From assembly GCA_005772955.1 (NCBI GenBank), contig SXID01000045.1, forward strand, positions 1-32,058: DNA of 32,058 nt, in the 5' to 3' direction. The notes under the pieces are model-generated. The model did no database searches. It was not told where the DNA came from and saw nothing but the letters and a program-made list of their open reading frames with translations. Origin of the DNA: Planctomycetia bacterium. GTDB taxonomy: Bacteria; Planctomycetota; Planctomycetia; Gemmatales; Gemmataceae. Numbering within the stretch: the stretch's first letter is position 1; each line of letters begins with the position of its first letter. A program made the translations under genes and the position numbers. Positions 22,093 to 24,803 of the stretch are shown here, piece by piece.

Positions 22093-22239
22093 GGAGAGAA
22101 TCTCAACGAAGGCGAAACTTTTTCGGATTCTGAGCGAACCTTACTATGAGTCTCGCGTCTATGTAGCGTACACCGCGAGTTGGAATCAACAACTGCGGAC
22201 CATCACGAACACGATACACAACGTACACCCAATACAACC

Positions 22240-22422: not shown

Positions 22423-22452
22423 CCCCTGGCGAGCCAAGTAATGGCAACCGCG

Positions 22453-22494
22453 CCGGCCGGGGGTAACAGAAACCCCCGGCCGGTTCTTTTTTTT
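22453..22494 (+). terminator. Strong intrinsic terminator immediately upstream of the tRNA array
   Basis: A 12-bp perfect stem, CCGGCCGGGGGT (22453-22464) with 22472-22483, has a 7-base loop AACAGAA followed by TTC and eight T (22487-22494). The first tRNA base is at 22523, leaving only 28 bases for a promoter, so the hairpin either insulates a compact promoter or acts as an attenuator. Confidence 0.92.
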
Positions 22495-22522: not shown

Positions 22523-22595
22523 GCCCCGTTCGACTTCCGGTGAGGTCGGTGGTCTTTCAAGCCGCTTAGGTCGGGTTCGACTCCCGCACGGGGTA
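22523..22595 (+). tRNA. tRNA-Glu(TTC)
   Basis: A 73-base cloverleaf. The acceptor GCCCCGT pairs with ACGGGGT, discriminator A. The D-stem is GACT/GGTC. The anticodon stem is GTGGT/GCCGC with loop CTTTCAA, anticodon at 22556-22558. The T-loop is TTCGACT, with one T-stem mismatch (49-65). No CCA is encoded; CT follows the discriminator. First gene of the array. Confidence 0.85.
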
Positions 22596-22605
22596 CTGAA
22601 TTTAC

Positions 22606-22686
22606 AGGTGGTGATCGCGTCTGGGAACGCACTCGGTCTCCAAAACCGACGGCTCGTCCTGCGGGGTTCGATTCCTCCGCCACCTG
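22606..22686 (+). tRNA. tRNA-Trp(CCA), irregular, enlarged variable region
   Basis: 81 bases. The acceptor AGGTGGT pairs with GCCACCT, discriminator G (as in bacterial Trp). The anticodon stem TCGGT/ACCGA is perfect with loop CTCCAAA, anticodon at 22640-22642. The D-stem is best read as GCGT/ACGC, set off by 4 bases. About 12 bases separate the anticodon arm from the T-arm instead of 4-5. T-loop TTCGATT. No CCA; CT follows. Confidence 0.75.
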
Positions 22687-22699
22687 CTGGTTTGCGAAC

Positions 22700-22772
22700 G
22701 GTCCAGAAGCTCATTCGGTAGAGCGACCGCCTGTCGAGCGGAAGGTTGCGGGTTCGACTCCCGTGTGGGCCG
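22700..22772 (+). tRNA. tRNA-Asp(GTC), copy 1
   Basis: A 73-base cloverleaf. The acceptor GGTCCAG pairs with GTGGGCC except G7-G66. Discriminator G, the Asp identity base. D-stem GCTC/GAGC; anticodon loop CTGTCGA (anticodon 22733-22735); T-arm GCGGG-TTCGACT-CCCGT. No CCA; CT follows. Confidence 0.87.
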
Positions 22773-22782
22773 CTGGTTTGCT

Positions 22783-22856
22783 GGAAGTGTGTCCGACGTT
22801 GGCTAGGGGCCTGCCTCTTAAGCAGGTTTACGTGGGTTCGATTCCCACCGCTTCCA
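22783..22856 (+). tRNA. tRNA-Lys(CTT)
   Basis: 74 bases. The acceptor GGAAGTG pairs with CGCTTCC, discriminator A. The anticodon stem CCTGC/GCAGG is perfect with loop CTCTTAA (anticodon 22817-22819). The T-arm GTGGG-TTCGATT-CCCAC is the form shared by six genes of the array. No CCA; CT follows. Confidence 0.87.
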
Positions 22857-22867
22857 CTGGTTCGTGT

Positions 22868-22938
22868 GCGTCCGTGGTGTAGCAGCAACACGCCACTCTT
22901 CCAAAGTGGTTTCGCGGGTGCAATTCCCGCCGGATGTA
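22868..22938 (+). tRNA. tRNA-Gly(TCC), non-canonical T-loop
   Basis: 71 bases. The acceptor GCGTCCG pairs with CGGATGT, discriminator A. D-stem GTGT/ACAC with a 7-base loop AGCAGCA lacking the usual GG. Anticodon stem CCACT/AGTGG, loop CTTCCAA (anticodon 22900-22902). The T-stem GCGGG/CCCGC is perfect, but the loop is TGCAATT rather than TTCAANN. No CCA; CT follows. Confidence 0.8.
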
Positions 22939-22965
22939 CTGTCGGCGGCCGGTTGATATACGAAC

Positions 22966-23036
22966 GCGCCCATGATGTAGCGGTAGCCTACTGCCTTGCC
23001 ATGGCGGACGTGTGGGTTCGACTCCCACTGGGCGCT
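22966..23036 (+). tRNA. tRNA-Gly(GCC)
   Basis: 71 bases. The acceptor GCGCCCA pairs perfectly with TGGGCGC, discriminator T. Anticodon stem CTGCC/GGCGG, loop TTGCCAT (anticodon 22998-23000). T-arm GTGGG-TTCGACT-CCCAC. The D-stem has one mismatch. It is clearly paralogous to the next gene, Thr(GGT). No CCA; CT follows. Confidence 0.87.
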
Positions 23037-23072
23037 CTGTTGATGATGACAGGTAACAGCGAAATATAGATC

Positions 23073-23143
23073 GCCCTTGTGATGTAGTGGTAGCTTGCCG
23101 TCTTGGTATGACGGACGTGTGGGTTCGATTCCCGCCGAGGGCT
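23073..23143 (+). tRNA. tRNA-Thr(GGT), Gly-like body
   Basis: 71 bases. The acceptor GCCCTTG pairs with CGAGGGC, discriminator T. Anticodon stem CCGTC/GACGG, loop TTGGTAT (anticodon 23105-23107). D-arm, variable loop (ACGT) and T-arm are nearly identical to the preceding Gly(GCC), which implies duplication followed by an anticodon change. No CCA; followed by TT. Confidence 0.82.
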
Positions 23144-23162
23144 TTGGATATGTGATAGAAGC

Positions 23163-23237
23163 GGCACGGTACGCCAACTGGAAGAAGCGGCCAAGCTCAA
23201 ACCTTGGTGTGTGTGGGTTCAAATCCCTCCCGTGCTA
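23163..23237 (+). tRNA. tRNA-Leu(CAA), class I body with short variable loop
   Basis: 75 bases. The acceptor GGCACGG pairs with CCGTGCT (G1-T72 wobble), discriminator A. Anticodon stem CCAAG/CTTGG is perfect, loop CTCAAAC (anticodon 23198-23200). The variable loop is only TGTGT, whereas bacterial tRNA-Leu normally has a long variable arm. T-loop TTCAAAT; one T-stem mismatch. No CCA; CT follows. Confidence 0.82.
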
Positions 23238-23246
23238 CTGGAAACT

Positions 23247-23331
23247 GCCTTCGGACGTGTGGTGGGCCACCCGACTACCTGTAAAGCAGCCGCCTTCACG
23301 GGCAATGTGGGTTCGATTCCCACCCGAGGCA
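23247..23331 (+). tRNA. tRNA-Tyr(GTA), class II
   Basis: 85 bases. The acceptor, allowing one bulged T, pairs GCC-T-CGG with CCGAGGC; discriminator A. Loop CTGTAAA (anticodon 23281-23283) on a weak stem with two mismatches. A long variable arm with a GCC/GGC stem, as expected for bacterial Tyr. T-arm GTGGG-TTCGATT-CCCAC. No CCA; CT follows. Confidence 0.8.
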
Positions 23332-23341
23332 CTCGAAGAAC

Positions 23342-23414
23342 GGCTCGTTGGTCCAACGGTTTACGACATCAGGTTGTCAACCTGAAAACACGGGTTCAAC
23401 TCCCGTACGAGCCG
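23342..23414 (+). tRNA. tRNA-Asp(GTC), copy 2
   Basis: 73 bases. The acceptor GGCTCGT pairs perfectly with ACGAGCC, discriminator G. Anticodon stem TCAGG/CCTGA, loop TTGTCAA (anticodon 23376-23378). T-arm ACGGG-TTCAACT-CCCGT. The body resembles the following Glu(CTC) more than the first Asp gene. No CCA; CC follows. Confidence 0.88.
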
Positions 23415-23443
23415 CCTGTTGATGTTCGTTATGTGAGCTATAC

Positions 23444-23516
23444 GGCCCGTTCGTCCAGCGGCACAGGACACCAGGTTCTCAACCTGATAACGGGGGTTCG
23501 ATTCCCCCACGGGTCA
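23444..23516 (+). tRNA. tRNA-Glu(CTC)
   Basis: 73 bases and among the best folded of the array. Acceptor GGCCCGT/ACGGGTC, discriminator A. D-stem GTCC/GGAC perfect. Anticodon loop TTCTCAA (anticodon 23478-23480). T-arm GGGGG-TTCGATT-CCCCC. No CCA; CT follows. Confidence 0.9.
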
Positions 23517-23520
23517 CTTT

Positions 23521-23606
23521 GGAAGGATGAAGGTTGAAGGTTGAAGGATGAACAAGTCGGAATCTCTGCTTTGGTTCATCCTTCAACTCTCATCCCTCAT
23601 CCCTCC
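23521..23606. repeat. GGATGAAGG / CCTTCATCC inverted repeat inside the tRNA array
   Basis: The left arm 23521-23553 contains tandem GGTTGAA units. It is largely complementary to 23574-23606, with a 13-bp perfect core (23541-23553 with 23574-23586). It separates Glu(CTC) from Leu(CAG). Confidence 0.75.
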
Positions 23607-23611
23607 GAAAT

Positions 23612-23685
23612 GGTGATGTAGACCAATGGAAGGAGTCGCCACGCTCAGAACGTGGACAGTGTGGGTTCGAATCCCACCATCACTA
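23612..23685 (+). tRNA. tRNA-Leu(CAG), class I body with short variable loop
   Basis: 74 bases. Acceptor GGTGATG/CATCACT, discriminator A. Anticodon stem CCACG/CGTGG perfect, loop CTCAGAA (anticodon 23646-23648). Variable loop ACAGT, far too short for normal tRNA-Leu. T-arm GTGGG-TTCGAAT-CCCAC. No CCA; CT follows. Confidence 0.83.
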
Positions 23686-23699
23686 CTCGGTTATGTGTT

Positions 23700-23767
23700 T
23701 GCGGACGGGCCGGCGCCCGACCGGGTCTCATAAGCCTGGATGCTGGGTTCAACTCCCAGGTCCGCAA
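23700..23767 (+). tRNA. tRNA-Met(CAT), reduced D-arm, copy 1
   Basis: Only 68 bases. The acceptor TGCGGAC pairs perfectly with GTCCGCA, discriminator A. The D region is 15 bases, folding as GGGC-CGGC-GCCC plus GAC, with no 8-9 linker. Anticodon stem CGGGT/GCCTG, loop CTCATAA (anticodon 23729-23731). T-arm CTGGG-TTCAACT-CCCAG. It lacks the initiator marks (mismatched 1-72 pair, three consecutive G-C pairs), so it is an elongator or an Ile tRNA if modified to lysidine. CT follows. Confidence 0.78.
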
Positions 23768-23776
23768 CTCCTTCTT

Positions 23777-23846
23777 CGCGGGCGGGCGGGTGCTCAGCCG
23801 GGTCTCATAAGCCTGGCCCTCTGGGTTCGAGTCCCAGGCTACGCGA
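23777..23846 (+). tRNA. tRNA-Met(CAT), reduced D-arm, copy 2
   Basis: 70 bases. The anticodon arm is identical to the previous gene (anticodon 23806-23808) and the D region is again 15 bases, GGGC-GGGT-GCTC plus AGC. The acceptor is weaker: CGCG pairs with CGCG at the end, but the inner pairs are mismatched. T-arm CTGGG-TTCGAGT-CCCAG. It may be degenerating. CT follows. Confidence 0.68.
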
Positions 23847-23902
23847 CTTCGCCCACGTAGCCCGCTGCGCCCCGCACAGTGGGCGCGGCGCGGGTGACGA
23901 AT

Positions 23903-23976
23903 GACCGAGTAGGCCAACTGGTAGAGCCGACAGGTCGAGAGCCTGTCAAGTGTGGGTTCGACTCCCACCTCGGTCA
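23903..23976 (+). tRNA. tRNA-Leu(GAG), class I body, C at position 33
   Basis: 74 bases. The acceptor GACCGAG pairs perfectly with CTCGGTC, discriminator A. Anticodon stem ACAGG/CCTGT, loop TCGAGAG (anticodon 23937-23939). Position 33, almost always T, is C. If the loop were read one base earlier the anticodon would be CGA (Ser). Variable loop AAGT only. T-arm GTGGG-TTCGACT-CCCAC. CT follows. Confidence 0.75.
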
Positions 23977-24030
23977 CTGTTTGGTGTTGAGGCGAGCCGG
24001 GAGCGTCAGCGACCGGAGTATTCGCAAAAC

Positions 24031-24098
24031 GGGATCGCTCGCGGGCGAGAGTTGTGCCTTGCAAGCACGACGACGGGGTTCAACTCCCCGCGGTTCCA
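24031..24098 (+). tRNA. tRNA-Ala(TGC), reduced D-arm, G3:U70 kept
   Basis: 68 bases. The acceptor GGGATCG pairs with CGGTTCC and includes the G3-T70 wobble that defines Ala tRNAs; discriminator A. The D region is 15 bases, CTCG-CGGG-CGAG plus AGT. Anticodon stem TGTGC/GCACG, loop CTTGCAA (anticodon 24060-24062). T-arm CGGGG-TTCAACT-CCCCG. CT follows. Confidence 0.82.
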
Positions 24099-24111
24099 CT
24101 CGATCACTTAC

Positions 24112-24198
24112 GGACGGGATCCGGATACGGCTGGCCGGGACGCTTTGCTAAAGCGTTCGCCCCTCGTGGGCATGTGGGTTCGAATCCCACCCCCTCCG
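24112..24198 (+). tRNA. tRNA-Ser(GCT), class II
   Basis: 87 bases. Acceptor GGACGGG/CCCCTCC with one C-C mismatch, discriminator G as in Ser. D-stem CCGG/CCGG. Anticodon stem ACGCT/AGCGT, loop TTGCTAA (anticodon 24147-24149). Normal long variable arm with GCCC/GGGC stem. T-arm GTGGG-TTCGAAT-CCCAC. CT follows. Confidence 0.88.
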
Positions 24199-24205
24199 CT
24201 GAACT

Positions 24206-24278
24206 GCCCTGGTGGTGAAACGGACTATCATTCCGCGCTTCGAACGCGGCGTTCCGGGTTCAAATCCTGGCCGGGGTA
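24206..24278 (+). tRNA. tRNA-Arg(TCG)
   Basis: 73 bases. Acceptor GCCCTGG/CCGGGGT, discriminator A. D-stem GTGA/TCAT. Anticodon stem CCGCG/CGCGG, loop CTTCGAA (anticodon 24240-24242). T-arm CCGGG-TTCAAAT-CCTGG. No CCA; CT follows. Confidence 0.9.
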
Positions 24279-24284
24279 CTGAAC

Positions 24285-24358
24285 GGTCTTGTGGCCTAGC
24301 GGTTCAAGGCGCCTCCCTGACACGGAGGAGATCGGTGGTTCGATTCCACCCAGGACCA
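24285..24358 (+). tRNA. tRNA-Val(GAC)
   Basis: 74 bases. Acceptor GGTCTTG/CAGGACC, discriminator A. D-stem GCCT/AGGC perfect. Anticodon stem CCTCC/GGAGG, loop CTGACAC (anticodon 24319-24321). T-arm GGTGG-TTCGATT-CCACC. No CCA; CT follows. Confidence 0.9.
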
Positions 24359-24380
24359 CTCCGGGGCAACCCGGCTCGAT

Positions 24381-24453
24381 GCGGCATGTGGTGTAGCGGT
24401 AGCACGCGGCCCTGTGAAGGCTGAGGTGAGGGGTTCAACTCCCCCCGCGCCGC
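24381..24453 (+). tRNA. tRNA-His(GTG), with G-1:C73
   Basis: 73 bases including the extra G-1 that pairs with discriminator C, the His hallmark. Acceptor CGGCATG/CGCGCCG has an A5-C68 mismatch. D-stem GTGT/GCAC. Anticodon stem CGGCC/GGCTG, loop CTGTGAA (anticodon 24414-24416). The T-stem has one mismatch. No CCA; CC follows. Confidence 0.87.
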
Positions 24454-24462
24454 CCTCTGTTC

Positions 24463-24543
24463 GAGTTGCGAGTGACGAGTTGAAGACACTGAATCGAGCC
24501 ACTTGTCTTTAACTCGCCGCTCGCAACTCGTCACTCGCAACTC
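24463..24543. repeat. 19-bp perfect inverted repeat (GAGTGACGAGT type) inside the tRNA array
   Basis: GAGTTGCGAGTGACGAGTT at 24463-24481 has its exact complement at 24525-24543. It separates His(GTG) from Thr(CGT). The same GAGTGACGAGT unit appears near 27774. Confidence 0.8.
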
Positions 24544-24546
24544 TCT

Positions 24547-24620
24547 GCCGGTGTGGCGCGACCCAGAAAGGCACCGAGCTCGTACCTCGAATCATGCGGG
24601 TGCGAAACCCGCCGCCGGCT
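24547..24620 (+). tRNA. tRNA-Thr(CGT), non-canonical T-loop
   Basis: 74 bases. The acceptor GCCGGTG pairs with CGCCGGC, discriminator T. Anticodon stem CGAG/CTCG plus one mismatch, loop CTCGTAC (anticodon 24581-24583). The T-stem GCGGG/CCCGC is perfect, but the loop is TGCGAAA instead of TTCGAAA. The D-arm is poorly paired. Last gene of the array. CT follows. Confidence 0.75.
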
Positions 24621-24640
24621 CTCGATCTTACTTGGTTACG

Positions 24641-24682
24641 GACCCGTCGCCGGGTGCACGTTGTGCACCCCGGCGACGGGTC
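24641..24682 (+). terminator. Hairpin terminator closing the tRNA array
   Basis: A 19-bp stem (24641-24659 with 24663-24682, one bulged C) around a GTT loop, 20 bases after the last tRNA. Only a weak T stretch follows, so it may end transcription or protect the 3' end. Confidence 0.7.
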
Positions 24683-24803
24683 GTTTCGTTCACATTCCCG
24701 TTCGAACAGTGGCACGATGGCGTTTCAGTCCGTAAGATTCCATCTCCTCTCCACAATTGCCCGCCCTAATCGCCGTACAGCGCGATATTCACTGGTGCAG
24801 ATA

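Follow-up and report, generated by a model that had tools for sequence, protein, structure and literature searches.

A tRNA gene array of Gemmata, probably an inducible replacement set controlled by ribosome-mediated attenuation

The DNA analysed here, called the window, is a stretch of 32,058 nucleotides (contig SXID01000045.1, assembly GCA_005772955.1) from a genome of the genus Gemmata (5.9 Mb, 278 contigs; G000 below). It holds a dense array of tRNA genes behind a putative control region (Table 1). At 95% of the ARAGORN thresholds, the array comprised exactly 21 tRNA genes for 14 amino acids, all on the + strand, the same count as in an initial annotation made from the sequence alone. ARAGORN at default settings found 16 tRNA genes in the window and Rfam 14 tRNAs above its gathering score, every one inside the array; no RNA family besides tRNA was detected in the window at that score. 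A tRNA array unit is defined by a dense group of about 20 tRNA genes or more, with carriage by a phage, plasmid or integrative element common and not required, and 21 genes in 2.1 kb have this density. Many array tRNAs are irregular in body, and several fall below default detection. Their decoding parts are largely intact: in the two arrays of the genome taken together, U33 is kept in 31 of 32 tRNAs, at least four anticodon-stem pairs in 31 of 32, and an exact GGTTCRANTCC T-arm in 29 of 32, versus 34 of 42 dispersed tRNAs.

Both G000 arrays share one layout: GCGAACC-N14-GCGTC[T/A]AT, a small open reading frame (ORF), its stop, 25–29 nt, a GC-rich hairpin, a T-rich tail and the first tRNA gene. 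The promoter, leader, antiterminator and terminator thus placed upstream of the array are new beyond the initial annotation. The promoter resembles the GAACC...CGTC style of extracytoplasmic function (ECF) sigma factors. The window leader, which had no Pfam match, contains all 13 non-Met amino acids of its array, and 86% of its codons are readable by tRNAs of that array; in windows taken from eleven real genes of the contig the mean was 62% and the maximum 83%, so that none of 4981 reached this value. Its codons AAG, AGY and CGA correspond to Lys-CTT, Ser-GCT and Arg-TCG of the array, and in the leader of the second array AAA, CAA/CAG, CCG, GGG and TTC/TTT correspond to tRNAs of that array. 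The segment overlapping the stop codon of the window leader, ACCCCTGGC, matches over 9 bp, counting G-U pairs, the loop-proximal part of the terminator's 5' arm, GCCGGGGGT. A terminator scan gave 2 sites in the window versus 2.6 in shuffles, so the case for the window terminator rests on position and conservation.

Rfam gave 69 tRNA matches genome-wide. The second array (L031, contig C110) has 11 tRNAs (Asn, Gln-CTG, Gln-TTG, Lys-TTT, Phe, Gly-CCC, Pro-CGG, Pro-TGG, Arg-CCG, Asn and Arg-ACG), has no anticodon in common with the window array, and is largely complementary to it. Two tRNA pairs, Ser-GGA with Arg-TCT and Arg-GCG with Cys (contigs C268 and C258), each lie behind a GCGAACC motif. 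The initial annotation had the array standing alone; the second array and the pairs rule out a unique site. Its proposal of a second tRNA set holds. Seventeen of the 19 distinct anticodons of the window array also occur in a dispersed gene elsewhere in the genome, the two without a complete dispersed copy being Lys-CTT, whose codon is readable by Lys-TTT, and Ala-TGC, present as a partial gene at a contig end. In a complete genome of the same genus (G043), at least 50 tRNAs, in 38 stretches that lie outside the two arrays of that genome, represent all 20 amino acids. An ordinary main tRNA cluster, holding the only copies of these isoacceptors, is ruled out by the other copies. An Asn-tRNA pattern search gave no match, and no Asn-GTT was seen outside array 2 in the G000 draft; one was later found outside the arrays in G043, and the missing G000 gene is probably an assembly gap. 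Near a contig start, a stretch 93% identical to part of array 2 (L117, G000:C150:303-544) can be read either as a partial array copy or as a strain variant.

Array DNA was searched in 61 Gemmataceae genomes and the promoter pattern in 95. The pattern was found at 44 places in 29 of the 95 genomes, and a backward pattern, used as control, at none. tRNA genes lay downstream at 39 of the 44 places (at least four at 37, one at 2) and were lacking at 5. Fifty-two leaders from 33 Gemmataceae genomes of 11 genera were compiled; loci with an unclear or incomplete leader were left aside (L087, L093, L094, L095, L096, L101, L102, L110, L113, L115, L116, L122, the G000 pairs and the fragment L117). In the cultured relative Limnoglobus roseus PX52 the array is split and has a leader (L085/L146).

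Class-wide, 397 genomes contained 61 pattern places, versus 2 for the backward control. Seventeen of the 61 were outside Gemmataceae: 10 precede arrays, 4 precede an ECF sigma gene 0.7–1.0 kb downstream, and 3 neither. The 10 arrays belong to one other planctomycete family, with 15–33 detected tRNAs each, a leader and a terminator, and the segment overlapping their stop is GTGACAC in 7 and GTAACAC in 3. A sequence filed as viral (L309, IMGVR_UViG_2887592959_000001), one of 39 pattern matches in the viral collection, carries promoter, leader, terminator and an array of at least 19 tRNA genes, its promoter stretch being identical to that of G331. These second-type leaders (the 10 and L309) contain 148 of 165 array amino acids. 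At one of the 10 loci (L369, G341:C1:6051500-6056000) the array begins only 2.2 kb on, and the gap of about 2 kb between the leader and terminator and the first detected tRNA may be an insertion.

Leaders were compared with their arrays for 48 Gemmataceae loci with at least four detected tRNAs (L107, L114, L261 and L266 were dropped, and Met was left out of coverage); class labels were assigned by array content, and representatives were picked by hand. The own leader holds 437 of 447 array amino acids, versus a mean of 316 (maximum 368 in 20000) for permuted leader-array pairs and 353 (maximum 377 in 2000) for random equal-length pieces of the window contig's genes. Read in frames +1 and +2, the same leader DNA gave 314 and 330. 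Coverage of the array amino acids was full for 40 of 48 leaders in frame, and for 2 and 2 out of frame; the ten missing entries are spread over 8 leaders. Codon decodability by the own array was 0.673, versus 0.410 after permutation (0/20000). Within class 1 (31 leaders) it was 0.677 versus 0.593, and within class 2 (15 leaders) 0.667 versus 0.623 (0/20000 each).

Matching extends, more weakly, to codon choice. Class 2 leaders use AAA 17 times and AAG 3 times for Lys, and 14 of their 15 arrays carry Lys-TTT; class 1 leaders use AAG 27 times and AAA 4 times, and 23 of 31 arrays carry Lys-CTT. In class 2, a TTA codon accompanies Leu-TAA (3/3 versus 0/12, p=0.002), in arrays of three genera. At two related loci, L280 and L281, array and leader both include His at one locus and Tyr at the other, but Trp, present in both arrays, is in one leader only. 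In G049, Pro-CGG in the array goes with Pro codons in the leader; some class 1 leaders likewise contain Pro codons without a Pro tRNA in their arrays. A short leader ORF whose codons correspond to the products of the operon, the first hallmark of an attenuator, is thus present. It is most improbable that leaders and arrays resemble each other through common ancestry and base composition and not through sensing: leaders are indeed alike within a genus and the isoacceptor link is partial, but the frame controls, the permutations within classes and those among representatives (below) argue otherwise.

The second hallmark is an intrinsic terminator before the first structural gene. A hairpin of 9–26 bp begins 18–34 nt past the stop in 52 of 52 leaders, beats all of 100 shuffles in 49, and is followed by at least 5 T within the next 12 nt in 46. 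The third is a mutually exclusive antiterminator placed for a decision by the ribosome. The segment flanking the stop pairs with the 5' arm of its own terminator with a score of 18.8, versus 14.6 for permuted arms (0/20000), and the score falls to 11.3–13.2 when the segment is slid 15–60 nt upstream. Pairs covary between leaders: ACCCCC with GGGGGT, GACGCC with GGCGTC, GATGCC with GGCATC, TTGTGACACC with GGTGTCGCAA, and GGATGAC with GTCATCT.

The ribosome footprint reaches about 15 nt downstream. The hairpin is mostly out of reach of a ribosome at the stop, and the antiterminator overlaps or adjoins the stop codon; both argue against control of the opposite sign, where full translation of the leader would be needed for read-through and the arrays would be housekeeping supplements in fast growth. 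Translation can keep terminators from folding in other systems (PMC5021804; here and below, statements on cited papers refer to the available parts of their text), and we nevertheless hold this alternative to be highly unlikely.

On this evidence, which is that of sequence comparison, the window array is likely an inducible replacement-tRNA operon under ribosome-mediated transcription attenuation, and its matched leader most probably marks it as a regulated replacement set. If all the tRNAs needed by the leader were available, a ribosome at the stop would cover the antiterminator, the terminator would fold, and the array would be off. If a required tRNA were missing, cleaved or uncharged, the ribosome would stall upstream in the leader, the antiterminator would capture the 5' arm of the terminator, and polymerase would continue into the array. 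Since the antiterminator overlaps or adjoins the stop, a ribosome there would free the terminator and any upstream stall would act alike, so that leaders of 14 to 60 codons could be multi-input sensors. The leader would thus act as an OR gate over the tRNAs replaceable by the array, and in G000 the job would be split between two largely complementary arrays with different leaders. The likeliest trigger would be that certain tRNAs are lost, to anticodon nucleases for instance. Of the roles suggested in the initial annotation, stress and protection against tRNA-cleaving toxins fit this control logic and may hold, whereas a different translation mode found no support.

In his and trp leaders the regulatory codons stand in runs. 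The codons of the present leaders are scattered; moreover, sensing of a general inhibitor would not require a leader that lists the amino acids of the array, and starvation is not cured by extra tRNA. For these reasons we regard it as rather unlikely that the attenuator, while real, senses amino-acid starvation or ribosome-targeting antibiotics generally, with the tRNAs serving as a surplus, as decoys or in the interest of fidelity, as with the Anabaena trn operon. Such sensing would agree with the response of classical attenuators to short amino-acid supply (PMC1183508) and with the induction of the 26-tRNA operon of Anabaena by translation-targeting antibiotics (PMC10272220).

Several points weigh against control by matched attenuation. 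Regarding the match, near-identical leaders inflate the permutation results, so that a set of 16 representatives picked by hand, in most cases a single array for each class and genus, is the better guide (0.622 versus 0.379, 0/50000). Synonymous choice is shifted only modestly toward the own array, with 1246 of 1500 codons decodable, counted over amino acids for which the array has a tRNA, versus 1164 expected (0/2000), the expectation applying the window contig's codon usage to every genome. The window array cannot read the Asn codons and the TTA of its leader. The link between TTA and Leu-TAA fails outside class 2 (over all 48 leaders, the two coincide in 4 cases, 16 have only TTA and 1 has only Leu-TAA). 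There are 143 leader amino-acid entries without a tRNA detected in the array; the rule is therefore that nearly every replaceable amino acid is tested, not that only those are. Among the 11 second-type leaders, only 1 has a greater variety of amino acids than random gene pieces at the 5% level, and these leaders therefore support the layout more than the matching.

Regarding the switch, a shuffled stop segment gives p≤0.05 in just 27 of 52 leaders, and a segment slid 8 nt downstream hardly loses score (18.0). Class 1 antiterminators vary little, being mostly CCCC with GGGG; L097 and L114 have a weak antiterminator, and in L091, L098 and L108 the hairpin is not above shuffles. Inspection by eye revealed a promoter without attenuator at L096, L110, L113, L116 and the two G000 pairs, and arrays that look decayed in G016 and G056. 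Tight coupling of transcription and translation in Gemmata is an assumption.

The last two arrays, the irregular tRNA bodies, several of them below default detection, and the array on a contig of the viral collection would also be expected if the clusters were functionless tRNA genes, gained horizontally and now in decay, as PMC4807772 proposes for the planctomycete clusters that it calls degenerate. Intact anticodon stems, U33 and T-arms, synteny with ribD across genera (below), and amino-acid-matched leaders in 33 genomes of 11 genera make such decay very unlikely, and leave the regulated replacement set as our preferred reading.

The array is flanked by ribD upstream, on the opposite strand, and by an ArsR-type helix-turn-helix gene and a MatE transporter downstream. 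At least eight tRNAs stand beside ribD in 7 of the best 80 of 570 named neighbourhoods, all 7 matching family-f1 genomes. This synteny leans toward the view of the initial annotation that the array has no visible vehicle, and so do the three neighbour genes looked at, all of them ordinary. The strong hairpin after the last tRNA is probably the end of the operon. Self-complementary repeats, perhaps small mobile repeats, lie in two spacers (23515-23612 and 24462-24530 of the window), and the first of these regions matches further places in the source genome and in other genomes.

Table 1. Features of the array and its control region (window positions).
Feature	Position	Strand	Basis
ECF-type promoter GCGAACC-N14-GCGTCTAT	22134..22162	+	pattern search, family genomes
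Leader ORF, 60 codons, MNLWHTSTELHTTATAAVAKTLYLAAAHMSGLESGHALGLELDTLARVEANLSGKSDTSG, stop TAA	22240..22422	+	codon match to array
Antiterminator segment ACCCCTGGC, overlaps stop codon	22422..22430	+	pairing with terminator
Intrinsic terminator hairpin, 13 bp, before first tRNA; T-run 22487-22494	22452..22484	+	fold and terminator scan
Array of 21 tRNA genes	22523..24621	+	ARAGORN, Rfam
tRNA-Glu (TTC)	22523..22596	+	ARAGORN
tRNA-Trp (CCA)	22606..22687	+	ARAGORN
tRNA-Asp (GTC)	22700..22773	+	ARAGORN, Rfam
tRNA-Lys (CTT)	22783..22857	+	ARAGORN
tRNA-Gly (TCC)	22868..22939	+	ARAGORN
tRNA-Gly (GCC)	22966..23037	+	ARAGORN
tRNA-Thr (GGT)	23073..23143	+	ARAGORN
tRNA-Leu (CAA)	23163..23238	+	ARAGORN
tRNA-Tyr (GTA)	23249..23330	+	ARAGORN
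tRNA-Asp (GTC)	23342..23416	+	ARAGORN
tRNA-Glu (CTC)	23444..23517	+	ARAGORN
tRNA-Leu (CAG)	23612..23686	+	ARAGORN
tRNA-Met (CAT)	23700..23768	+	ARAGORN
tRNA-Met (CAT)	23777..23844	+	ARAGORN
tRNA-Leu (GAG)	23903..23977	+	ARAGORN
tRNA-Ala (TGC)	24031..24099	+	ARAGORN
tRNA-Ser (GCT)	24112..24199	+	ARAGORN
tRNA-Arg (TCG)	24206..24279	+	ARAGORN
tRNA-Val (GAC)	24285..24359	+	ARAGORN
tRNA-His (GTG)	24382..24455	+	ARAGORN
tRNA-Thr (CGT)	24547..24621	+	ARAGORN, Rfam
Strong hairpin after last tRNA	24638..24690	+	fold -40.7 kcal/mol; without clear T-run; absent from terminator scan output

The four class-wide places upstream of an ECF sigma gene, in two other families, carry the exact array motif. The four proteins align (40–79% identity to the first), and sigma70 regions 2 and 4 were recognised (for the L371 protein, Pfam Sigma70_r2 with E 5e-15 and Sigma70_ECF; NCBIfam sigma70-ECF above cut-off for three candidate proteins). 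A profile search of 16 Gemmataceae genomes gave a single full match below 1e-25 in each of 15 (loci L380-L394; in the source genome L389, G000:C237:23631-24155) and two partial pieces in the other, G030. In all 15 loci the sigma gene is preceded by an ORF of 133–188 codons with a Shine-Dalgarno-like motif. GCGAACC stands 199–291 nt upstream of this leader in 14 of 15 loci, the stretch being not covered in L394, and is joined, as judged by eye, by a GTC-containing box in the same number. The sequence AAAGTGAGGTG around the stop of the sigma leader is invariant in 9 aligned loci. We infer from the similarity of the motifs that this single-copy sigma factor, with its apparently related promoter and long leader of its own, may transcribe the arrays. 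It shares sigma70 regions 2 and 4 and promoter style with other ECF sigma factors, and differs in the long leader ORF of varied codons before its gene and in the link to tRNA arrays. No description of a planctomycete ECF sigma factor with tRNA genes and a leader peptide was found among titles and abstract openings.

Sigma leaders contain a mean of 52.5 of 61 distinct codons (15 loci), versus about 42 in gene windows and 32.6 in sigma genes, the leaders having been picked as the ORF with most distinct codons behind a Shine-Dalgarno-like motif, which favours high counts. Their other frames reach 48.3 and 49.7, so that a census of codons is plausible and only moderately supported. At the four sigma loci of other families, codon variety was elevated in three and not in L374. 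Tentatively, and with rather more doubt than confidence, a two-tier “decoding census” may be considered: the sigma factor would be gated by a leader visiting most codons, a failing tRNA would free sigma so that all arrays are transcribed, and the matched attenuators would then select the array able to replace the missing tRNA.

The array promoter was also seen elsewhere. In one genome only, an exact copy lies just before the RNA 3'-terminal phosphate cyclase gene RtcA (Pfam RTC; L278, G079:C261:3664), a possible link to RNA repair. In another single genome, the RNase P RNA gene (Rfam RF00010; L265, G070:C266:8972) has an exact copy a short way upstream. RtcB was rejected as a regulon member: the gene is present in the source genome, but the 4.3 kb around it contain no such promoter.

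The trp, his and ilv attenuators combine a leader ORF containing regulatory codons with an antiterminator/terminator switch (PMC1183508), and their gene products, like those of the present operon, are tied to those codons. Here, by contrast, the controlled genes are tRNAs, many amino acids are sampled, most of them once or a few times, and the antiterminator overlaps or adjoins the stop. The trn operon of Anabaena PCC 7120 (26 tRNAs) is likewise a second tRNA set that stays silent until translational stress induces it; compared by description, it differs in its megaplasmid location and in its repression at the promoter by the ribbon-helix-helix protein TrcR (PMC10272220). Degenerate clusters of tRNA genes are described from many Planctomycetes, as partly degraded imports that may be dispensable (PMC4807772). 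These are of the same phylum and kind and, by their description, possibly the same class of arrays, and the idea that such chromosomal clusters had gone unreported finds no support; a promoter, leader or control is not reported in the available text of that paper.

Mycobacterial and phage array units are, by description, also dense arrays of irregular tRNAs, for which an anti-defence role is proposed (PMC5966550, PMC12803027, PMC10264068). They differ in being reported from mycobacterial genomes, phages and plasmids, and the words promoter, leader and terminator are absent from the available text of PMC12803027. In 15 of 26 comparable G000 array tRNAs, the anticodon loop is unlike that of the dispersed tRNA of the same anticodon; a similar pattern has been proposed for nuclease-insensitive phage tRNAs (PMC10264068). 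No description of tRNA arrays or operons controlled by attenuation or a leader peptide was found, as judged by titles and abstract openings among the matches listed, most subscription journals being outside this scope.

The extra tRNA sets of bacteria, plasmids and phages have long been without a settled role. Here the regulation suggests a purpose, in that the operon would sense failing tRNAs and make those, and attenuation would extend from amino-acid synthesis to the tRNA pool. A leader whose amino acids match a downstream tRNA array provides a signature to search for elsewhere. If the decoding census were true, these planctomycetes would test their own translation apparatus throughout the cell and make targeted repairs, a capacity that may have evolved to counter phage defence or toxins that cleave tRNAs.

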